A stretch of 64,000 bases of DNA from Antedon mediterranea (Eukaryota > Echinodermata > Crinoidea > Comatulida > Antedonidae): contig NC_092676.1 of assembly GCF_964355755.1 (NCBI RefSeq), positions 6,058,288 to 6,122,287 of the forward strand, written 5' to 3'. This document shows, one piece after another, positions 6,201 to 55,619 of this stretch. Numbering within the stretch: the stretch's first letter is position 1; each line of letters starts with the position of its first letter. The position numbers and the translations under genes are program-made. Below the pieces are notes generated by a model. The model did not search any database. It worked only from the letters and a program-made list of their open reading frames with translations, and was not told where the DNA came from.

Positions 6201-9200
6201 ACCTTACATCATAAAGATTTCCATATCTGTGCCCTTGCAACCAGCGATGCGGCTACAATTTGTGCCACAACGAAGGGCGATATTTATGCTTTGCATGAAT
6301 ACCAGTGCAGAAAGATTGCCTCTAAGTAAGACTACAGTTATTTCATTTTACATGACCGTAGAGAGAGTTTAGACAAAGTTCCCAGCCAAAAATATCGTGA
6401 GACTTTATAACCTAACCAAACAGAGCATGATATTAATATAGTAATGGGTATATTATGCACTTTCCAGAATATGGCATAGGCTGTGTTTGGACGTAAAATC
6501 AGTTACATTGAGAGCTAAATCAGTGATTGTTGGGACGATGCAAAATGTGTAAGCTCAAAAAAATTACCCAGCAAGGTCATATTTCATGCATAATTTTACA
6601 CTAGTAATGTCAAATTGCTCCTTATCTTGTGGTTAATCAGCTTGTGGTTTAAGGTGTAATTGAACAATCCACCTCATGAAGTGGGTTTTTGAAACAGCTG
6701 GATTATCTCAAAATGTACACCACACGCATAAATTGTTACGTCAGAACGGCTCATACAGTATGCTGATAATATAAAGATACCGGAGTTCTTTGAGTTTTTC
6801 TCATGACAAAACAATTCCACTCTCAAAGACTGTTTATGTTGTTATGGTTTTCAGATGTTTAAACATTAAACAATTAGCAGTCATTGGTGGTCATTTAGAC
6901 TCTGATGTCGAACAGACAATGTTACAAAAACAGGGCGGAGAGGAATTACAAGTGGTAGCACTGAATGCATCAGGCACAGTAAGTTTAATTGATCATGCAG
7001 ACATTGTGTATTGACCAAAAAGATTGCCTCCTACCATAGGATTATAATGCAATATAAGTACAAATAAATATAAAGCATAAAAGGAAAATAATAATAAAAA
7101 TAGATAAAGAAATAAAATAATATAAGAAATAAATCCAAACAATCAAAACTAAAATCAGCTGTGAATACTGCCACCACATCAACTAGTTCCGTGATAATCA
7201 ACATGATGATTGTGGGAACTCAAAACGAAAAAGATTAAGACAGATTAAACCTTGTTGAATGCAGCCTAGATTCTAGGCCTTCTCCTAGTAGTTAAGTAAT
7301 GTATATTTGTGTACACTGGACTATATCTAATATGCACTATGTACTACTTCACAAGGTGTCCCAGGCTGTGTAGTGCCCTTTCCCCTATTCTTCTGAATAG
7401 TGCTATCTTAAAAAATGAATGAATAAAAATATTACAGAGTGAATAAGATGTAATATTATTATGAGGTAACAGCAGAGTAAAAAGAAAGAAGCAAAGTATT
7501 TAAGAAAATGGAACCAATACGCCTTTTTCACGAAATGGAAGACATTTTCAATCGATGACAAACAATGCTGTGCAACAGAGCGTAACCAACAGAAATAACA
7601 TAGCGTTTTCAGGGGATTTTTAAGGACACCATGTTAATTAAAAAATCGTAACTCTTGAACGGAGGATCGTATGAGAAAAAAAAATTACTGTAAAATGTTC
7701 TTAAAACATTTGCCTACATCACTGTGTGATTAAAAAAAATTAGAAATTTTTTTTTCACTGCTTAAAATCCATTGAAAAAAACATCACAGTGTATAAGCAT
7801 ATAGGCGTTTGTCACTGTCGTTTTTTCATGGTGCAGTCGCGGCGCCTATGCTTATACACTGTGGTGTTTTTTTCGATGGAATTTAAGCAGTGAAAACAAT
7901 TTTTCAAATTTTTTTCAATCACACAGTTTATGTAGGCTAATCTTTTAAGAACATTTTACTGTAAAAATTTTGTCCATACGACTGTCCGTTGAGGAGTTAC
8001 GAATTTTTAACTAACTTGTCCTCCGAAAATAGGCTGAAAACGCTATGTTCTTTCTGTTGGTTACGCTTCGTTGCACGGCATTGTTTGTCATCGATCGAAG
8101 ATGTCTTCCGTTTCGTGGAAAAGGCGTATTGTAATTAGAGCATATAACAGAAAATTAAGGTCATAGTTCATATATTTTAACTTTCGCATTCCATTTTCCT
8201 GCTCTTAGGTTTTTGTTTGGAAATTGTCTAACAGATGTCTGAAGAGATGTGTGTGGGATGTTAAAAGCCAGCTGTTTGTGTCTGATATTGCTATTAATAA
8301 ACATGGCATCATCATGTGTACCACACAAGGTCAAGGCTTTCTTGGGTTCATGTCAAAGACAGGTCACCAAATAAGAGGTACAGAAAAGTATATTTTGTTA
8401 TTGTTTGTTATGAATACTCTATTATTTTATTGAAATTATAATCATTTTTTAGTTAATGTAAAGCTCAAATAGTTGACAAATGTGATGTGCCAAAATATTT
8501 CTTTTATTTTATTTATTCAGGTATAAAAACAAAATTACTGTACAATTTACATAACAATAACAAAATTCCACAAAAATGAATTAAAAGGTACAATATCACT
8601 CTGTAACTCGGTATGGTATTGATATGTAGTTGGCTCTCTAGTTTAATTTATAACCTCTTTACTACACACACAGAATGAGAGTTGATAATAAGTGTATATG
8701 TAGTTGGCTCTCTAGTTTAATTTATAACCTCTTTGCTACACACAAAGAATGAGAGTTGATAATAAGTGTATAATGTAGTTTGCTCTCTAGTTTAATTTAT
8801 AACCTCTTTGCTACACACACAAAATGAGAGTTGATAATAAGTGTATATGTAGTTGGCTCTCTAGTTTAATTTATAACCTCTTTGCTACACACACAAAATG
8901 AGAGTTGATAATAAGTGTATATGTAGTTGGCTCTCTAGTTTAATTTATAGCCTCTTTGCTACACACACACAGAATGAGAGTTGATAATAAGTGTATATGC
9001 AGTTGGCTCTCTAGTTTAATTTATAGCCTCTTTGCTCCACACAAAGAATGAGAGTTGATAATAAGTGTATATGTAGGTTGGCTCTCTAGTTTAATTTATA
9101 ACCTCTTTGCTACACACACAAAATGAGAGTTGATAATAAGTGTATATGTAGTTGGCTCTCTAGTTTAATTTATAACCTCTTTGCTACACACACAAAGAAT

Positions 9201-12200
9201 GAGAGTTGATAATAAGTGTATATGTAGTTAGCTTTCTAGTTTAATTTATAACCTCTTTGCTCAACACACAGAATGAGAGTTGATAATAAGTGTATATGTA
9301 GTTGGCTCTCTAGTTTAATTTATAACCTCTTTGCTCAACACACAGAATGAGAGTTGATAATAAGTGTATATGTAGTTGGCTCTCTAGTTTAATTTATAAC
9401 CTCTTTGCTACACACACAGAATGAGAGTTGATAATAAGTGTATATGTAGTTGGCTCTCTAGTTTAATTTATAACCTCTTTGCTCAACACACAGAATCAGA
9501 CTTGATAATAAGTGTATATGTAGTTGGCTCTCTAGTTTAATTTATAACCTCTTTGCTACACACACACAGAATGAGAGTTGATAATAAGTGTATATGTAGT
9601 TGGCTCTCTAGTTTAATTTAAAGCCTCTTTGCTCAACACACAGAATGAGAGTTGATAATAAGTGTATATGTAGTTGGCTCTCTAGTTTAATTTATAACCT
9701 CTTTGCTCCACACAAAGAATGAGAGTTGATAATATAAGTGTATATGTAGTTGGCTCTCTAGTTTAATTTATAACCTCTTTGCTTACACACAAAGAATGAG
9801 AGTTGATAATAACTGTATATGTAGTTGGCTCTCTAGTTTAATTTATAGCCTCTTTGCTCCACACAAAGAATGAGAGTTGATAATAAGTGTATATGTAGTT
9901 AGCTTTCTAGTTTAATTTATAACCTCTTTGCTCAACACACAGAATGAGAGTTGATAATAAGTGTATATGTAGTTGGCTCTCTAGTTTAATTTATAACCTC
10001 TTTGCTCAACACACAGAATGAGAGTTGATAATAAGTGTATATGTAGTTGGCTCTCTAGTTTAATTTATAACCTCTTTGCTACACACACAGAATGAGAGTT
10101 GATAATAAGTGTATATGTAGTTGGCTCTCTAGTTTAATTTATAACCTCTTTGCTCAACACACAGAATCAGACTTGATAATAAGTGTATATGTAGTTGGCT
10201 CTCTAGTTTAATTTATAACCTCTTTGCTACACACACACAGAATGAGAGTTGATAATAAGTGTATATGTAGTTGGCTCTCTAGTTTAATTTAAAGCCTCTT
10301 TGCTCAACACACAGAATGAGAGTTGATAATAAGTGTATATGTAGTTGGCTCTCTAGTTTAATTTATAACCTCTTTGCTCCACACAAAGAATGAGAGTTGA
10401 TAATATAAGTGTATATGTAGTTGGCTCTCTAGTTTAATTTATAACCTCTTTGCTTACACACAAAGAATGAGAGTTGATAATAACTGTATATGTAGTTGGC
10501 TCTCTAGTTTAATTTATAGCCTCTTTGCTCCACACAAAGAATGAGAGTTGATAATAAGTGTATATGTAGTTGGCTCTCTAGTTTAATTTATAGCCTCTTT
10601 GCTCAACACAAAGACTGAGAGTTTCATAATAATTGTACATTAACAATTAAAAATGTATTCTATTTTTCATCCAATCCAGATGTAAAACCCAAAACACCTA
10701 CATCAACAACTCCAGATGCGTTTTCCGTTGCCGTGAGAGCGAAACACGTTGATAGGGAAGAAGTTGAACTAGTACACTTAGAGAGGATTCCATTTATACA
10801 TAGGGGTGTTCATGTTGCCTGTGATAAATCTGGCAAAAATTATGCTTTTCTGCAATCTGACCCTAAAACAAGGTATGACAATAACGTTGTATTTCCAAAA
10901 TGATTGGGATAAATTGCACCTTTGTCGAGAGATGAAAAATCAACTTAAAATATCCTAAATTATCAGGAGACTTGAAATATATGTAAATCTTTATATATTG
11001 TAGCTTGGTTGAAATTCCTCTTGTAAGAGCATCAGTACAGTTAAAAGAGTTTGCGGCCCTCTTCAAAGAAGTTAGCTCATGTGATAACATACATGATGTG
11101 ATACTGAAGGTAAGTTCACTGACCTTTGGTTTATCTATTATTTCTCTACCTATGGATTTTACTGACTTAAGATTCAATCAATATGTCACACACAAGCTTG
11201 AACCCATACCTCTCACATGCAAGTCTGATCCCCTACCATTATGCCATATAACTCACTAAATGATAACATGATTTTAACACATTTTTTTTTAAAGATTGGT
11301 GCAAGACAATGGCCTGCTCACAAGTACATCCTCTCAGCCCGATCAGAATATTTCAAAAAATTATTTTTCGAAGAAGCCAGAGAAAGAAAAGATTGTGAAG
11401 ATCCGACTGACATTGAAAACTTGATGCCAAAACCAGTAGAGGTCGTCGCTGTCGGTGACATGATCACGGCTCCAATACTGGATCTCCTGCTGCAGTTTAT
11501 CTATGAGGATGAGTGCGATTTATTTAAACCTGGATTTAAATTTGAAAGTGGCAAACAAAATGCAGTTAATTATGGAAAGTCTGATAACTCTCAAGAAATC
11601 ACGATCAATGTTAAACAATCTGCTTATGCTGTGAATCAAGAACTGATTAAAGCAGGGAAGGGAAAGAAAACAGATGGAAGGAAGCAGAAAGGAGGGAAAA
11701 AACAAAAGAATCAAACAAACGAAGTGAAAGATGATTTGATGTTAGCAGTTAAATTGGTTCAAAATGCTGCAAAACAATTCAAAGTGCTGCGGTTAACACA
11801 AAGGTAATTTTTTAGCCTTGTTCTATGTTAAGCTCTGTCTTCACTATCAAACTAGTTTGACAAGAAAAGTGTGATGTGCCCACATGTGATCACATTTTGT
11901 TTTCACATAAAGTTTGATGGTGTAGACAGAGCTTTAGATATCTTAGAACGGTGCCTTGGTAGTAAAATACTGTATCTCAATTATTTTCAAACTCATTGCC
12001 ATTTCAGATTGGAAGGGGTTAAAGTTCAAAATGATCAGCTGCAGAATTTGAAGAAGAGCAGTAAAAAGCCTAATTACAATAGAAACCAGTGCTCATACCT
12101 ATCAGATGTCAGCCTTGAAGCAGAAGATGGCACCACCTTCAGGTGTCATAAATCTGTATTGGTGGCTAGACTGGAATACTTCCATAGTATGTTAGCAAGT

Positions 12201-22960: not shown

Positions 22961-24524
22961 ATTGCACTAGGCCAGGTGTAGGCAGAGTGAAAATTATAAT
23001 AAATGTTTATTTATATTTAGAACATGCGCACTTTATAAATAATAATAAGTCTCTTTTTTTTTACGCGGACCTTATTTTTGACCGGTGTGCTTTTTTGGTC
23101 AGTTACATCAGTAGTCTGAGGATCCGCGTGTCTGCTATTATTTAGTAGGCCTAGTGTCTTGTTGAATTCATCTGGGAGGGAAAATTTTAAATGTTTTGAC
23201 AAAGTTACATATTTAATCATCGTCAAGTTGTGAATTTCAAATTAACTAAAGTGAAAGTCAGACAGACCTTTGTCCAATACAGTACTTTTAAATACTTCAT
23301 TTAATGACAACTATGTTTGCATGTAAATTGCTGATAAGGTTACTTAACTGTTGTTAATAGTTAAATGTCCATTGAAATAATACTACTATATATTACAATG
23401 CCATAACAATAATCCTTTGCTTACAATATTCCAAAAGCCGTGTGGATCTGCAAGATTCTAAAATTATTATTTTTTAAATGATGGTGCCTCCTGTCCTCTT
23501 TTAAATTAATAACGTTATTTATATTAAAACCTCATTATATAACTAATCCTGAAAATTTTTTTTCCATCAAATTATAGTAGGAACTTAATGTACAGTAAAG
23601 TATTGTATATTGTTCAGTTACTTGTCACGCTTGTTCAAATCGCAATCATAACAGTACGTACATTTCTATGCGAGAAAATCTATTCTAGGCCTATATAATA
23701 ATAAAATCACCGTTATTATTTGATTTTTAACACTTAAAACTCGTTCAATTAGTTGTCTTTCACGATAAATAATACCTAAAAGTAACAAAAAGAGAGGCTA
23801 ATTAAGACTGTTTTAAGACTCTTTCGAGTATAGGCTTTAATTTTTTATTTAATTTTTAAGACCGCTTTATAGGCCTACAGGTTACACCGCGGTATAGCAA
23901 TGGTCTATAATAAATTGTAATTTAAACATTATTACAATACCCTCTTTATTTCATCAGAGATACAGGTATATAAGAGGTATATCCAAATAAAATTACCACC
24001 CAGAATGACACCCCTTAGCCTAGATAACCCTTCCGACCTAGCCTAGTAAGCAGTATGTGAGTGACTTAAATCAATAAATTAAAGCAATTAATATTGAAAT
24101 GTTGATATTTTTTATTAATTATATACAAAGCGCACCTGCTTCAACTAATTAAATATTTATTGTAGTAAGTACGGTATTATTTGTTAATCGTAACAGATAC
24201 TGTAGCATATTATTATTATTACCTCTTTGCTTTTCATGTTTACTTAATAACCCATTCCATACGGAATCCAATTGATCAAATGTGTACTATTTCCTAATGC
24301 TATAATAATCATAATTTTTTTCCGCGGATACTGTTATTTTTTTTTTATCAAGTTCCTTTTTTGTCTAACCCTTCCTTCTGTTTTTCTCCCTTTTTGCTTA
24401 ATCTTGGATTTTGTATTGTCTTTTTGAAACGTACATTGTCATTAGTAACGTATCATTTGTGTATTTTTACAATGTGTTTATCTCTAGCCAAGTTAGCTTT
24501 CCCTAAGTCTGTAGTTGTTATGTT
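22961..24524. other. Intergenic AT-rich DNA, nothing supported
   Basis: Scattered homopolymer runs and short non-conserved frames. No gene, RNA or clear element was seen. Confidence 0.5.
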
Positions 24525-24640
24525 AGTCCACCAGTCGGCGTTCCGATTTTTTGTCTAAATTGTGAGCTCAAATATTATACGTATGAAACGCCATAAGTGC
24601 CAAATCTTTTTACTAATTTCGGTCTAAGAACATGCACTAT
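24525..24640 (+). repeat. Dispersed ~110-bp repeat, copy 1
   Basis: The word series CCAGTCGGCGTTCCGATTTTT, GAGCTCAAATATTATACGTATG, ACGCCATAAGTGCCAAAT, TTACTAATTT recurs at 53431-53565 (+) and 58213-58330 (-). This defines a dispersed family of unknown class. Confidence 0.7.
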
Positions 24641-24932
24641 CCTATTGTAAGCGTTTTATAGTGTTCAAGAAGAATTTGTAATGGCGACGGTCAGATGTTT
24701 GCCTACCTATTGTTCGTACCTTTTTTGTGTCAACATCGTAGTATAAATAATTGCTTATTTTTTAATTAATCATATCAAAGCTTCCCAAATGATTGATTAG
24801 ATATTATTTTGGATACATTTATCAGTAAATATTTATTTTCTTAATTAATTAATTAATTTAAAAAAGAGAGATATTGCTGATCTTTGTTAAAACAAGGCCT
24901 GGTAAAAACCCCACCTGGCGTGTTGTAGGCTC

Positions 24933-24964
24933 TATAAAAGTAGACCCGTCTAGATCAGTCTTCA
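24933..24964 (+). promoter_or_regulatory. Core promoter of the proline/arginine-rich repeat gene
   Basis: A TATAAAAG box at 24933-24940 is followed by initiator-like TCAGTC (A at 24957) and TTCACAG (A at 24964), 24-31 bp downstream. A spliced leader exon begins right after. The compact TATA promoter suggests strong, tissue-restricted or inducible expression, but this is inference. Confidence 0.65.
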
Positions 24965-25022
24965 CAGCATACTTGCCGGTTACTACGAACGGTTTCATCT
25001 ACACATAACTACGAATAGTAAG
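24960..25022 (+). other. Non-coding exon 1 of the proline/arginine-rich repeat gene
   Basis: About 60 nt from the initiator to GTAAG, followed by a GTAAGTTT donor at 25023. The matching acceptor TTTTCTTCAACAG ends at 25792, seven bases before the ATG. The exon contains no ATG. Confidence 0.6.
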
Positions 25023-25130
25023 GTAAGTTTTTTTTATTATTATTATTTACTAATCAGTAGTAGGCCTATGTGAACAATTGAGCAAATTTACAAGAGTTAA
25101 CAAAAATCGCCGCAACCAAGATTGAACTAA

Positions 25131-25390
25131 TGCTTGGTTCCCACTAGGACACAACGCAAGGACGTAAGCGCAACGCAAGTCATTTGACCTAATTATTCGA
25201 ATTGTCGCTTGTCTTTGGTTAACTCGCTTACGTTGCTACGCCCTTGCCTTTCGTATTCGGAGTCAGAAGCAAGCTTAAGTTGCCCACTAATCACGACGAG
25301 ATGGATTATCCGAACTAGTTGCTTGTGATTGGTCAACTCACATGCGTTGCGCCTACGTACTGTAGTTGCGTTACGTCCAATCTTTAAACT
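25131..25390. mobile_element. MITE-B, degenerate copies in the 5' UTR intron
   Basis: GCTTGGTTCCCACTAGGACA begins it. AACGCAAGGACGTAAGCG and inverted words such as GCTTGTGATTGGTCAACTC and TTGCGTTACGTCC follow. At least one full palindrome and a second half are present, both eroded. Confidence 0.65.
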
Positions 25391-25799
25391 CGTTGCAGGA
25401 TGCTACACCCGATTATCTGTATTGTATTTCCAGATACAGTAGTCATTAGTTATTTAATTATAGAAAAGGCATTTAAATTACCGGCTGGGAAATAAAACAC
25501 AATAATTGTGGTTTGTTTCCTAAGCTTTTTACCATTAATTCTTGTTATACGTTAGTAAAATTGTATGCAAAGATTATTACTGATTGGTGACTTGTTATAC
25601 AGAGTTAGGGTTAAATAAGCCACAGTAGGCCTACCATTCACACTTGGTACATACGGAACGGAAGACTGCGCCCATTTGTTATGTAGGGTATATCATGTCT
25701 AAATTGAAGCAGCCCATTACAAAATAATACCGATCATATATCGGGTGATTGTGTACAACATATAGTTATATTTGTATTATTTTCTTCAACAGAAAGGCA

Positions 25800-27569
25800 A
25801 TGATGAACAAGATATTACTGGCGTTACTTCCATTCTTGGCTATAAGCTGTGCCTTTTATATCAATGCAGACAATTCTGGACCACTTCGTCCCATTCCAGG
25901 AGGACCATGTCGTCCATCATCTGAAGGACCACGACCAGAAGAGCCTGCCGTAGAGACGAAGCGTCAAGAACCCGAACGACCAGAAGGCCCAGAAGAACCA
26001 CGTGATGATACCGATAGACCACGCCCACCAAGACCTAATCCCGATGGACGACCACGTCCTGCCAATTCCGGAGAAGAGCCTGCCGTAGAGACAAAGCGTC
26101 AAGAACCCGAACGACCAGAAGGCAGTACAGAAGAGCAACGTGGTGATGGCGATAGACCACGCCCACCAAGACCTAATCCCGATGGACGACCACGTCCTGC
26201 CAATTCCAGAGAAGAGCCTGCCGAAGAGACGAAGCGTCAAGAACCCGAACGACCAGCAGGCAGTACAGAAGAGCAACGTGGTGATGGCGATAGACCACGC
26301 CCACCAAGACCTAATCCCGATGGACGACCACGTCCTGCCAATTCAAGAGAAGAGCCTGCCGAAGAGACGAAGCGTCAAGAACCCGAACGACCAGAAGGCA
26401 GTACAGAAGAGCAACGTGGTGATGGCGATAGACCACGCCCACCAAGACCTAATCCCGATGGACGACCACGTCCTGCCAATTCCAGAGAAGAGCCTGCCGA
26501 AGAGACGAAGCGTCAAGAACCCGAACGACCAGCAGGCAGTACAGAAGAGCAACGTGGTGATGGCGATAGACCACGCCCACCAAGACCTAATCCCGATGGA
26601 CGACCACGTCCTGCCAATTCCAGAGAAGAGCCTGCCGAAGAGACGAAGCGTCAAGAACCCGAACGACCAGAAGGCAGTACAGAAGAGCAACGTGGTGATG
26701 GCGATAGACCACGCCCACCAAGACCTAATCCCGATGGACGACCACGTCCTGCCAATTCCAGAGAAGAGCCTGCCGAAGAGACGAAGCGTCAAGAACCCGA
26801 ACGACCAGAAGGCCCAGAAGAACCACGTGATGATACCGATAGACCACGCCCACCAAGACCTAATCCCGATGGACGACCATGTCCTGCCAATTCCGGAGAA
26901 GAGCCTGCCGTAGAGACAAAGCGTCAAGAACCCGAACGACCAGAAGGCAGTACAGAAGAGCAACGTGGTGATGGCGATAGACCACGCCCACCAAGACCTA
27001 ATCCCGATGGACGACCACGTCCTGCCAATTCCAGAGAAGAGCCTGCCGAAGAGACGAAGCGTCAAGAACCCGAACGACCAGAAGGCCCAGAAGAACCACG
27101 TGATGATACCGATAGACCACGCCCACCAAGACCTAATCCCGATGGACGACCACGTCCTGCCAATTCCGGAGAAGAGCCTGCCGTAGAGATGAAACGTCAA
27201 GAACCCGAACGACCAGAAGGCCCAGAAGAACCACGTGATGATACCGATAGACCACGCCCACCAAGACCTAATCCCGATGGACGACCACGTCCTGCCAATT
27301 CCAGAGAAGAGCCTGCCGTAGAGACAAAGCGTCAAGAACCCGAACAACCAGCAGGCAGTACAGAAGAGCAACGTGGTGATGGCGATAGACCACGCCCACC
27401 AAGACCTAATCCCGATGGACGACCACGTCCTGCCAATTCCAGAGAAGAGCCTGCCGAAGAGACGAAGCGTCAAGAACCCGAACGACCAGAAGGCCCAGAA
27501 GAACCACGTGATGATACCGATAGACCACGTCGACCAAGACCTAATCCTGATGAACGTCCTGAAATTTAA
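25800..27569 (+). CDS. Secreted Pro/Arg/Glu-rich tandem-repeat protein (589 aa), multicopy peptide-precursor-like
   Basis: The ATG pair MM follows a splice acceptor, so upstream codons belong to the intron. Residues 1-18 or 1-23 form a signal peptide (MMNKILLALLPFLAISCA). A short lead (GPLRPIPGGPCRPSSEGPRP) precedes twelve repeats from residue 47 to the end. Long units are 46 residues and short units 45, the last truncated. Each runs EEPAEETKRQEPERPEG, then either STEEQRGDGD or PEEPRDDTD, then RPRPPRPNPDGRPRPANSR. Repeats lack aromatic residues and nearly all aliphatics, so the chain should be disordered. Each unit pairs an acidic half with a cationic Pro-Arg half and has a dibasic KR before Gln, a convertase-type site. 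This resembles multicopy antimicrobial or neuropeptide precursors, or salivary proline-rich proteins. No named family was recognised. Repeats are nearly identical at DNA level, so frames on both strands stay open; those are shadows. Confidence 0.85.
   Translation: MMNKILLALLPFLAISCAFYINADNSGPLRPIPGGPCRPSSEGPRPEEPAVETKRQEPERPEGPEEPRDDTDRPRPPRPNPDGRPRPANSGEEPAVETKRQEPERPEGSTEEQRGDGDRPRPPRPNPDGRPRPANSREEPAEETKRQEPERPAGSTEEQRGDGDRPRPPRPNPDGRPRPANSREEPAEETKRQEPERPEGSTEEQRGDGDRPRPPRPNPDGRPRPANSREEPAEETKRQEPERPAGSTEEQRGDGDRPRPPRPNPDGRPRPANSREEPAEETKRQEPERPEGSTEEQRGDGDRPRPPRPNPDGRPRPANSREEPAEETKRQEPERPEGPEEPRDDTDRPRPPRPNPDGRPCPANSGEEPAVETKRQEPERPEGSTEEQRGDGDRPRPPRPNPDGRPRPANSREEPAEETKRQEPERPEGPEEPRDDTDRPRPPRPNPDGRPRPANSGEEPAVEMKRQEPERPEGPEEPRDDTDRPRPPRPNPDGRPRPANSREEPAVETKRQEPEQPAGSTEEQRGDGDRPRPPRPNPDGRPRPANSREEPAEETKRQEPERPEGPEEPRDDTDRPRRPRPNPDERPEI
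25938..27566 (+). repeat. 135/138-bp coding minisatellite, 12 units
   Basis: Two unit types in order short, five long, short, long, short, short, long, short. All lengths are multiples of three. Units 3-4 and 5-6 form an identical PAG/PEG pair, pointing to a 276-bp duplication. The short type mostly ends ANSG, and every internal unit after a short one begins EEPAVE. Confidence 0.95.
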
Positions 27570-27602: not shown

Positions 27603-27608
27603 AATAAA
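27603..27608 (+). terminator. Poly(A) signal of the repeat-protein gene
   Basis: AATAAA 33 bp after the stop codon. The 3' UTR is therefore very short, which fits a compact, highly expressed secretory gene. Confidence 0.75.
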
Positions 27609-27609
27609 G

Positions 27610-28500
27610 CACAGTCATTTAATCAATTAATTTAATCAATAAATTACCTTACATATATTATTAATTTAGTTATTATTTGTTTTTGACGTAATGTCTATTC
27701 AATTAAATAAATGACGCAAACGTATATTTTACTGTATTCTTTGATTCAATATTAGAGAGCTTTCAATTTTGTGACGACCTAGAATTGACTGTGTTACTAA
27801 GGAAATCTATCAACAGGATGCTGAGAGCTCAGGAGATCAAAGGGTTTTTCTGCAGTGGCTGCGACACAATCAGTTTCACGCCCCTTAATAGGCACCGCGG
27901 AGAATATGCACATAGTACAGTACTGTTGGTATTTGTCGCAGCCAGACATAAGATCAATGGACTGTTACGAGTTCCTATATTGACAAGGCGAGCTTAGTGT
28001 CCTGTTTTAGATTGCCTCTGTTGATCCCCGTAACTTTAACGATCGACAATAAAAAATGTCCGGAAATCATGATATTCTATCCCTTATTCGGTATTTCCAA
28101 AATAATTCAAATCAGTAACTCGGTAAATCAGAAGGTACGTCACTATACGCGCGCTAATTTGATGACCAATCACAAACGACAGTTAAATGAATCGTCGTTT
28201 GTAATAAACGTACGCGTGTCTTTGTCTTGTGATAACCAAGCTGAATGTATGGAATGTAGTCCTGGCAAAAATTAACTATGACTGATGAATTGGGTTTAGA
28301 ATTATTATGGTATCTGAATTCTTACGACAATCGCGTTTCATAGTTGTTCATTAACTTCATGCAATGTATGAAAGACAGGTGTCCATGTTTAAGCATTGAC
28401 ATGGATGATGTAGAGGTAACATGTGTACATTTGGCAGTCAGTAACTCGAAGTCATTGTGAGTTAGTAAACCGCTAATATGCCTATATCGCTACTATCAGC
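27610..28500. other. Intergenic, nothing supported
   Basis: Short open frames (about 70-90 codons) show no domain, and I see no RNA gene or repeat of note. Confidence 0.5.
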
Positions 28501-30455: not shown

Positions 30456-30640
30456 AGCTTGGTTCCCACTATAACGTAACGCAGGGACGTAAACGCAACG
30501 CAAGCGTGTTGACCAATCACAAGCGAAGTTATAGACAGTAAAGCTTGGTTCCCACTAGAACGTAACGCAAGGACGTAAACGCAACGCAAGCGTTTTAAAG
30601 CTTGGTTCCCACTAGAGCGTAACGCAAGGGCAACCAAACT
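30456..30640 (+). mobile_element. Three head-to-tail MITE-B left ends
   Basis: AAGCTTGGTTCCCACTA occurs three times in the same orientation (about 30458, 30543, 30600). Each is followed by AACGTAACGCA-type sequence and preceded by TA or AA. The right ends are missing. The pattern looks like nested or truncated insertions. Confidence 0.8.
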
Positions 30641-31266
30641 TCTATCCACGCTTTATGCGAAATTAGACTACATATATATTTATGTTTATCTATATTTATG
30701 TCTAAGTTAAGCCAGCACATCGGCTTCCCTTAAATTTAGGTTACACACCATCTTGACTTGGTCAAACAAAGAATGAATAAAATATAATCAATCATCTTCA
30801 AGTGCAGGTCGCTAACATTTCTATGCTTTTCAAAATGTTGTCTGATATGCAAATGATTCATCTCTGACAGGTGGCGATATGTATTTTGCATAATTTCAAC
30901 AAAAGCACACGTGTAAATCATTCGTAGAATCGACGGCGTTACACAAGTGTAGTTAATTAATCAACACCAGTTAATATTACGTTTGAATATAAGTAGGCCC
31001 TCTAATTCACACTGAAAGAAAATAAATCATAATTATAAACATTGTCATACTCGGAATTAAAAATGTCTTATTTGAGATATGCGATCATTCAAGATAGACC
31101 GCTAACCCACAACCCTTTAATATCTCCCCACCTCAATTGTTTCAGTAACAGCTGAACTATTGTTTTTAATGGTTTAATCTAAATTTTCTTGGTTGTTTTT
31201 TTTTTAAAGAAAAGTGTAGGCATATAAATAAGACGATTAATAACCTGGAAATGGCTACGCCCACTA

Positions 31267-31338
31267 AAGGCCAATTTACACAGACGAGCGGTAAACGGTA
31301 ATAACAATATAGAATCTATGTTATTCCATTTATAGACC

Positions 31339-31384
<46 letters not shown>

Positions 31385-31477
31385 TTAGACCATTTATTTA
31401 CACACAACAGGATAAATACAGATTCTACGTGGGACAAGCGGTTTTCAGCCTACCGTTCGTCTGTGTAAATTGGACTT
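31267..31477. mobile_element. MITE-F with GATA microsatellite inside
   Basis: The ends AAGGCCAATTTACACAGACG and CGTCTGTGTAAATTGGACTT are inverted copies. A GATA run of about 12 units (31339-31385) sits in the middle. The left flank is TA. Confidence 0.75.
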
Positions 31478-31641
31478 ATAGGAGATAACCCTCATTTCGG
31501 TCATCCCATTCATTAGGCCTATACTTCGATGTACAAATATACAATGGACAAAAACAATAACATTCCTTTTCAGAGCTCTTTAATGTATTTTCAATAACGT
31601 ATGAAGTTTGGTTGCCAATTGGACGCAACGCACTGATCGTA

Positions 31642-31818
31642 AAGCTTGGTTCCCACTAGCGACGCAACACAAGGACGTAACGCAATGCAAGCGAATTGAC
31701 CAATCACAAGCGATGGCTTATTCGCTTGTGATTACTGTCTATAACTTCGCTTGTCATTGGTTAAAACGCTTGCGTTGCGTTTACGTCCTTGCGTTACGTT
31801 CTAGTGGGAACCAAGCTT
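31642..31818. mobile_element. MITE-B copy, TA-flanked
   Basis: A 177-bp palindrome with ends AAGCTTGGTTCCCACTAG and CTAGTGGGAACCAAGCTT, flanked by TA on both sides. The inner part includes ACCAATCACAAGCGATGG and TAACTTCGCTTG. Confidence 0.92.
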
Positions 31819-31868
31819 TAGTGAGTTGGCCAATCACAAGCGGCATTTCGGACTATTCATCGCGTCTA

Positions 31869-32049
31869 AAGCTTGGTTCCCACTAGAACGTAACGCAAGG
31901 ACGTAAACGCAACGCAAGCGTTTTAACCAATGATAAGCGAAGTTATAGACAGTTAGCAATCACAAGCGAATAAGCCATCGCTTGTGATTGGTCAATTCAC
32001 TTGCATTGCGTTACGTCCTTGTGTTGCGTCGCTAGTGGGAACCACGCTT
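31869..32049. mobile_element. MITE-B copy in opposite orientation
   Basis: The interior is the reverse complement of the copy at 31642-31818, which lies only about 50 bp upstream. The right end has lost one T (ACCACGCTTA). Confidence 0.9.
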
Positions 32050-32334
32050 AAGTGGGTCAAATAATTTCCGGTGTGATTATTCCTTGCTTGTGTTTCGTCC
32101 AATACAAGTGGGAAAAAGTTTATGGAAACCCACCCACACGTCATAGAAGATAAAAATGTGAGATTGCCCCCTCTATTGTTTGTATGTTGATCAAGTTGGT
32201 GATGACACTCGGGAAGGTTACATGAATCGAATACTGTACATATAAAATAATTATACATTAACCTTTAATTAAAAAAAATTATATTAGCTTAAATTAGGCT
32301 ATACTCTACTACAACACAATACTGATTTACTTTA

Positions 32335-32692
32335 AAGATGTATTATTTTCCCCCTGAAAAAAAAGTTATTTAAATTTTTTTTGCTGAATATGCCATTTTA
32401 ATGTCACATAATACATTAATAGTTATCTACTTTGACCAAAAATTAGATCGAAAAACAAATTATTTACCTGAAAAATGTAAATTTAAGAAAAAAAATAGTC
32501 AAATTGGCTGCCAGCCAATGGATTTTTGGTTGAATTTAACCATTTATTATGTTATTTTATAAGTGAAAACATAATTTTTTCTGGTTTTTTTTTTCTACGC
32601 ATAGTGATTCACTTAAAACTACAAAATAACCTATTGAAAGTCTGATTTAATTAATCTTCATTTTTTCATGTTTTTGGGGGACAATACATATT
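32335..32692. mobile_element. MITE-E copy 1
   Basis: A 358-bp element flanked by TA. The ends AAGATGTATTATTTTCCCCC and GGGGGACAATACATATT are inverted repeats, and the interior is AT-rich and non-coding. A related copy lies at 51576-51913. Confidence 0.85.
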
Positions 32693-33144
32693 TAAGTAAC
32701 GTACCAGCTAGTGATAAACAATGTGTTGCTTTGGTTACCTGGTGATAGACCCGATAGACACTTCGCTGCTTTTGGTAAGCCCCTCAGACAAATCCAGGTA
32801 TTGCGTTTATAATTAAGAGTTCGTGCCAATGGTAATTGTACTGTGATTTTCCTATCTTGTCTACATATATACCTTTGGTTAAAACCTCATAGATGTTATC
32901 TGCTGCCCACCGCTTTTCAAGACTGATTCACATCCGACCACCTGATCCTTGTTTGCCATTTTCCAATGTGTTTAATTTTATTTTTTTAACAACGTTGTGG
33001 TTTGGAAAGCCTTGATTAAATTAAATTTAATAAAATATTTATTTTGAAACTGTTTTTTTTTTTTATTTTCGAGTAAATCCTTTTAAAAGATCGATTACTT
33101 TATTATTATAATGTAATTAATGCATTTCGAAAATATGGCCATTA

Positions 33145-33325
33145 AAGCTTGATTCCCACTAGAACTTAACGCAAGGACGTAAACGCAACGCAAGCGGTTT
33201 AACCAATGACAAGCGAAGTTATAGACAGTTAGCAATCACAAGCGAATAAGCCATCGCTTGTGATTGGTAAATTCACTTGCGTTGCGTTACGTCCTTGTGT
33301 TGCATCGCTAGTGGGAACCACGCTT
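33145..33325. mobile_element. MITE-B copy, TA-flanked
   Basis: A 181-bp palindrome beginning AAGCTTGATTCCCACTAG and ending CTAGTGGGAACCACGCTT, with TA on each side. The interior matches the copy at 31869. Confidence 0.92.
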
Positions 33326-33431
33326 TATTTGATCTTACCGTAAAAATGTAACTACGTATGCGTACCCCGTTTAATTTGTTTAGGGTATACTCGAATCAGA
33401 TAAATATATATTTAAACACAAATCATTTTTA

Positions 33432-33580
33432 AAGCTTGGTTCCCACTAGCACGCAAAGCAAAGTAAGCCGCAATTAATTTGACCAATCACAAACGATGGA
33501 TTTTCTGAACTGTCGCTTGCCATTGGTCACCTCGCTTGCGTTGCGGTTACATTGTCTTGTGTCTCTAGTGTGAACCATTG
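33432..33580. mobile_element. MITE-B copy, diverged
   Basis: AAGCTTGGTTCCCACTAGCA at the left and TCTAGTGTGAACCATTG at the right. The interior has ACCAATCACAAACGATGG and an inverted CGCTTGCGTTGCGG. Confidence 0.85.
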
Positions 33581-54989: not shown

Positions 54990-55602
54990 TTGCATACCTG
55001 CACATTACTTATTAATTGCGAATTGAATACACTGCTTGCGCATTACATCATGCGCGTATTATATACCTGCGCAGTACATATTTACGTGTTCTATCGCTGC
55101 GCATTACATATCTACGAGTTGCATAACACATGTGCATTGCATATCCGCGTATCTATACTCATTAGATACATATATTTGCGCATTACATATCTCATGCTTG
55201 TAGCATATTTGCGCATTAGATATCTGCGCATTACATATCTGCTTATAACATGTTATTTTCGAATTACATAATTATCTGCACATTACATATCTGCTTATAA
55301 CATATTTGCGTATTACATAAATATCTGCGCATTACATAAATATCTGCGCATTACATAATATCTGCGCGTTACATAAATATCTGCGCGTTACATAAATATC
55401 TGCGCATTACATAAATATCTGCGCATTACATAAATATCTGTGCATTACATAATTATCTGCGCATTACATAAATATCTGCGCGTTACATAAATATTTGCGC
55501 ATAACATAAATATCTGCGCATTACATAAATATCTGCGCATTACATAAATATCTGCGCGTTACATAAATATCTGCGCATTACATAAATATCTGCGCATTAC
55601 AT
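54990..55602 (+). repeat. 19-bp TGCGCA minisatellite
   Basis: The core from about 55265 consists of roughly 15-18 units of ATATCTGCGCATTACATAA, 19 bp each. The upstream part (from 54990) holds older, diverged versions (CTGCGCATTACAT with varied spacing). The palindromic TGCGCA carries a CpG in nearly every unit. Confidence 0.95.
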
Positions 55603-55619
55603 AAATCTATGCATACATA

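Follow-up and report, generated by a model that had tools for sequence, protein, structure and literature searches.

Vertebrate salivary proline-rich proteins are secreted and disordered, consist of Pro-rich tandem repeats and are sometimes cut at basic sites. In echinoderms, among which crinoids are the sister group of all other living forms, sperm-activating peptides such as asterosap and speract come from multicopy precursors, and in the insect apidaecins the spacers between peptides are trimmed by an enzyme rule of X-Pro/X-Ala dipeptide steps. Asterosap, a component of the egg jelly, binds a receptor guanylate cyclase of the sperm (PMC9265791). Apidaecin polyproteins carry peptides that are separated by motifs like RREAEPEAEP and have the conserved C-terminal sequence PRPPHPRL (PMC11549390). 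Proline-rich antimicrobial peptides (PrAMPs) are delimited by antimicrobial activity, a net charge of at least +1, a proline content of at least 25% and DnaK or the 70S ribosome as target, and 'echinoderm' and 'sea urchin' each occur zero times in the text of the review that gives these criteria (PMC11678341). Echinoderm precursors of the TRH type hold, in one chain, many Gln-started (pyroglutamyl) copies of tetrapeptide amides, pQxxx-NH2 (PMC4772807, PMC5627052), and the predicted crinoid precursors, for which no homologues in other echinoderms are reported, are defined by dibasic-bounded sequences after a signal peptide, with an optional C-terminal Gly for amidation in several (PMC9793003).

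Here we compare with these systems a locus of the crinoid Antedon mediterranea within a 64-kb window (the whole stretch of DNA that was analysed, in whose numbering all positions are given unless stated otherwise), where crinoids gain a repeat protein that has apparently not been described before. Our favoured reading, to which we assign a probability of roughly 0.47, is a secreted, disordered, charge-patterned tandem-repeat protein that would act in bulk, with cutting at its KR sites possible; secretion, disorder, bulk role, cutting and function are what we infer from the letters of the gene. Searches of literature text with its motif strings returned a sole match, an unrelated antibody epitope of a sponge IRF, and neither a Pfam family nor a PDB sequence was found for the protein at E≤1.

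Structure of the gene

The intact ORF at 25800-27569 on the plus strand encodes 589 aa plus stop, without internal stop, in a single coding exon. On its own an open frame is weak evidence, because repeats can leave other frames open as well, and here the minus strand has one of 423 aa across the array. Upstream lies a candidate TATA box, TATAAAAG (24933-24940, plus strand), the sole plus-strand copy in 23400-25800, with an Inr-like TCAGTCT at 24955, 22 bp beyond it; this spacing is rather short, as typical TATA-Inr distances are longer. Sequence reading places a candidate exon 1, 5'UTR only and ending in AAG before GTAAGT, at 24957-25022 (plus strand), followed by a candidate intron at 25023-25792 (plus strand) with donor GTAAGT and acceptor TTTTCTTCAACAG, ending at 25792; the intron houses one copy of a dispersed inverted-repeat element. 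The predicted 5'UTR is 72 nt long and contains no ATG. An AATAAA polyadenylation signal follows the frame at 27603-27608 (plus strand), with more copies at 27638 and 27706. Taken together, the ORF and the predicted promoter, 5'UTR intron and polyadenylation signal make it credible that this is a gene, its coding sequence lying in a single exon.

Within the animal's own genome (354 Mb, 18 contigs) a single locus was found: two protein searches gave 6 and 4 matches, all here, and a DNA search gave six pieces, again all at this locus. These paralogue counts are lower bounds and the DNA search skips simple repeats, so that diverged relatives could be missed.

Anatomy of the repeat protein

The protein begins with a signal-peptide-like N-terminus, MMNKILLALLPFLAISCAFYINAD (25800-25871, plus strand), in which a clear hydrophobic core can be recognized by eye from the translation; a secreted product with a signal peptide, as proposed by the earlier sequence-only reading, is therefore probable on this visual judgement. 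A lead-in of 22 translated residues, NSGPLRPIPGGPCRPSSEGPRP (25872-25937, plus strand), precedes twelve units of 45/46 aa, EEPA(E/V)ETKRQEPERP...RPRPPRPNPDGRPRPANS(R/G), which occupy 25938-27566 (plus strand), the last being only 41 aa long. Unit starts fall at residues 47-549 with a spacing of 45 or 46 aa, so that, this shortened last unit aside, the units differ in length by just 3 bp. Tandem Repeats Finder reports a period of 138 bp, 11.8 copies and 93% matches over 25937-27556, well beyond chance.

Every unit runs from an acidic arm, EEPAEET, through KR and Q to a second acidic arm (EPERPEGSTEEQRGDGD in type B units, EPERPEGPEEPRDDTD in type A units) and a Pro/Arg arm, RPRPPRPNPDGRPRPANS, followed by R or G. 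The twelve near-identical units with acidic segment, KR and cationic stretch that the sequence-only reading had described are borne out by the ORF, Tandem Repeats Finder and the KR count, yet its assignment of the same two segments to each unit is exact in part of the array only. The first arm reads EEPAEET in 7/12 units, EEPAVET in 4/12 and EEPAVEM in one, and the Pro/Arg stretch RPRPPRPNPDGRPRPANSR is exact in 8/12, the exceptions being units 1 and 9, which end in ANSG, unit 7, with RPCPANSG, and unit 12, shortened to RPRRPRPNPDERPEI. Aromatic residues, two F and one Y, all lie ahead of the repeats, which as stated earlier hold none. In unit 7 (26763-26897) a CGT to TGT change puts a lone Cys into RPCPANS, a possible source of an unpaired thiol within the repeats.

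The KR pair occurs in all twelve units and is followed by Q in each. All lysines of the protein fall within these pairs (12/12), except one in the N-terminal MMNK, and the one additional dibasic is an RR in unit 12. The residue preceding KR is T in eleven units and M in one, never Gly. KR was present in 20.0% of 200,000 circular shuffles of a single unit, and in 2.7% it was the sole dibasic. The pattern looks as if meant for processing, judged from the sequence, and counts against a bulk role; because all units descend from one, however, its regularity amounts to one modest observation and not to twelve.

Predicted fragments and charge

Cutting at KR would give 11 Gln-started peptides of 43-44 aa with net charges of -3 to -6, plus a 32-aa fragment from the C-terminus with a net charge of -4; the whole protein has a net charge of -27. 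The core from DRPRP to NSR carries a net charge of +4, in agreement with the earlier estimate, and is 35% Pro, with two Asp and without Leu, Ile, Tyr or His, but no dibasic site bounds it. The claim of a cationic-peptide precursor is not supported by this count, as the sole dibasic common to all units would release acidic peptides; the charge, the place of the cut site and the missing pharmacophore led us to drop it as the leading view. Proline makes up 22.7% of a type B example peptide and 27.9% of a type A example, and in a count of the two types of KR-bounded peptide, residues of the FWYILMVC class number 0 and 1.

From residue 25 onwards f+ is 0.21, f- is 0.25 and the mean scaled hydropathy is 0.23. 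In a charge-hydropathy plot these values lie well within the disordered region, as a disordered strong polyampholyte should. Over 10-residue windows the net charge ranges from -3 to +2 within one unit.

A predicted multicopy peptide precursor in the same genome

We searched the genome for four peptides of the predicted crinoid precursors, and two of them are encoded letter for letter: GLFPTGGMDPLGASYFT between DKR and GKR (locus L016) and GHPKSNFILMP between RR and GRR (locus L017). The other two gave no genome match at E≤10 (PMC9793003 for all four), and the eleutherozoan luqin pattern KFMRWGKR gave none, which agrees with a crinoid but is weak evidence. A COX1 search of the genome likewise gave no match. 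Two tektin exons have their best hits in chains of PDB entry 8snb, a sea-urchin sperm structure (282 bits, with 153 for the next chain, and 235, with 144). Together these results point to a crinoid, probably a feather star close to Antedon. The first peptide belongs to a PCNP4-like precursor (L016 340-1725, minus strand; G000:C3 about 158201-159238) with one GLFPTGGMDPLGASYFT-GKR and 16 tandem units of the AFPGSGGMDTLGNGYFT-GKR type. As the published text gives AmedPCNP4 a single such peptide (PMC9793003), either the gene is multicopy in this genome or the published transcript is collapsed or different. Like the repeat protein, this precursor has near-identical tandem units in a homogenised array, each with one KR; it differs in its GKR amidation signal (16/16 units), in its 17-aa peptides with Phe, Tyr, Met and Leu and in the selection described below.

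Variation between the units

Units 1-11 require a minimum of 12 nonsynonymous and 5 synonymous changes, which gives an omega of 0.77 (0.25-2.81 as 95% interval; p = 0.58 against neutral). Without codon column 18, which lies beside the indel, the counts are 10 and 4 and omega is 0.82 (0.24-3.58); with all 12 units they are 18 and 10, and omega is 0.58 (0.25-1.41; p against neutral 0.19). Purifying selection was thus not detected between the repeat units, an array that is young and offers few changes. In contrast, the 16 PCNP4-like units, with 7 nonsynonymous and 19 synonymous changes and an omega of 0.11 (0.04-0.28; p against neutral 1e-7), are under strong purifying selection; this yardstick precursor is itself predicted from its layout, with the signal-peptide exon not located.

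The two arrays differ by Fisher's test (p = 0.011 with units 1-11, 0.009 once column 18 is dropped and 0.007 with all 12), on small counts and with omega intervals that just touch (0.25 versus 0.28), and exchange between units can shift changes in blocks. In pairwise comparisons pN and pS each equal 0.05 in the repeat array and are 0.028 and 0.320 in the PCNP4-like array, the latter being the older of the two (pS 0.32 versus 0.05). Comparing unit constraint with that of a predicted precursor encoded in the same genome is an inexpensive way to tell candidate multicopy peptide precursors from look-alike repeat proteins. By a codon-table count, 9/14 amino-acid variants among the 12 units alter charge, so charge is not tightly kept, which weakens the case for a bulk role and strengthens that for an unselected frame.

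Possible functions

We favour a bulk polyampholyte. Units that bind a receptor, or that attack the ribosome, would be expected to stay under constraint and to carry residues for the binding, and neither was seen. The alternation of acidic arms with a Pro/Arg arm in each unit would make the chain a strong polyampholyte nearly without hydrophobic side chains, which may act through composition and length, as hydrated mucus, extracellular matrix or secretory-granule content, with the opposite charge blocks perhaps driving self-association. A convertase of the regulated pathway may cut the single KR of each unit, giving pieces of about 44 residues that start with Gln, possibly as pyroglutamate. The manner of action would be like that of salivary proline-rich proteins, and a mucosal or salivary-type role, which the sequence-only reading had also raised, comes close to our own; the likeness is one of style only, as the repeat protein is Arg- and Glu-rich and an echinoderm gene with no Pfam family at E≤1.

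The best of the alternatives, though in our view an unlikely one, is a precursor holding many copies of one specific signalling peptide, a neuropeptide or an egg-coat sperm-activating peptide, in which a convertase would use the 12 KR sites to free 11 near-identical 43-44-aa Gln or pyroglutamyl peptides for a receptor. The succession of signal-like start, lead-in, KR, unit and KR, with Gln after every pair, fits such a precursor, and dibasic-bounded sequences after a signal peptide are the feature by which the crinoid precursors were predicted (PMC9793003); here KR is present in 12/12 units, behind a signal-like start. Echinoderm TRH-type precursors share with it the many Gln-started copies in one chain, yet their products are tetrapeptide amides, whereas the pieces predicted here are 43-44 aa long and carry no amidation Gly (PMC4772807, PMC5627052). 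That Gly, optional in the crinoid precursors (PMC9793003), precedes none of the KR sites (T in 11, M in one), which leaves no amide; the peptides would also be almost without hydrophobic residues, no constraint between units was detected, unlike in the PCNP4-like array, and the protein is not among PCNP1-20 as described in the section text of PMC9793003. Should cutting at the KR sites indeed take place, the product would be an unusual, large and hydrophobic-free peptide.

A related idea, which we consider quite improbable, is that crinoids make multicopy, KR-processed, pyroglutamyl polyampholyte peptides, a kind that our searches did not encounter, which would serve either in host defence, as zwitterionic peptides, or in signalling, from the egg coat or as a secretory signal. 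In its host-defence form the acidic arms would mask the RPRPPRP core until a second cut; this core resembles bovine Bac7, which has RPRPPR, and that match may have been the source of the antimicrobial impression given earlier.

Of similarly low probability is a lineage-specific orphan frame, an expanded minisatellite with little or no selected function. The neutral-like variation between units and the share of variants that alter charge speak for it, as do the other open frames across the array, the single locus found and the lack of Pfam or PDB relatives at E≤1. The signal-like N-terminus, the plausible promoter, splice and polyadenylation signals, the ATG-free predicted 5'UTR and unit lengths that vary by only 3 bp, the shortened last unit aside, stand against it.

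Apidaecin-type polyproteins share with the repeat protein tandem Pro/Arg segments, acidic Glu/Pro spacers and a basic pair per unit (PMC11549390), but here acidic residues separate the basic pair from the cationic core on both sides and the released pieces would be acidic. The likeness drawn in the sequence-only reading gives way at further points: the protein has no PRPPHPRL end, with no His anywhere and no Leu in any unit, the X-P/X-A register of the spacer breaks down from the outset (QE, PE, RP, EG), and the units lack detectable purifying selection. A proline-rich antimicrobial polyprotein, in which cationic RPRPPRPNPDGRPRPANSR-like peptides would be freed from acidic spacers to act on bacteria, is therefore very unlikely: the Pro content and charge of the core, the resemblance to the RREAEPEAEP-spaced apidaecin layout (PMC11549390) and a conceivable monobasic cut after ANSR in 8/11 full units are outweighed, since none of the 11 KR-bounded peptides reaches the net charge of at least +1 of PrAMPs (PMC11678341), the core that would reach it has no common dibasic excision site and contains two Asp but no Leu, Ile, Tyr or His, and the Arg after ANS is missing in 3/11 full units.

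Surroundings of the gene

Eight neighbouring ORFs were scanned against Pfam, and a family was assigned in five. To the left these are ankyrin, RCC1 and two BTB, an order that we take to be that of IBtk; to the right, a STAR-dimer segment like that of quaking scores 24.7 bits, under the curated 26.3. The 64-kb window contains no RNA families at gathering score and no tRNAs. A 74-bp satellite of 27 copies (8622-10637) lies within the IBtk-like gene, a 19-bp array of ATAAATATCTGCGCATTAC (16.3 copies) occupies 55297-55606, and short arrays with 21-bp units of the ATATCACTACCATATTTGGGA kind are scattered over six places on either strand (5964, 16492, 20959, 50663, 63236 and 63466). MITE-like dispersed elements were examined in two stretches, 25136-25371 and 30547-33550, where their inverted repeats reach up to 95 nt with 97% complementarity, and their GGTTCCCACTAG motif is present in nine exact copies in the window, six on the plus and three on the minus strand.
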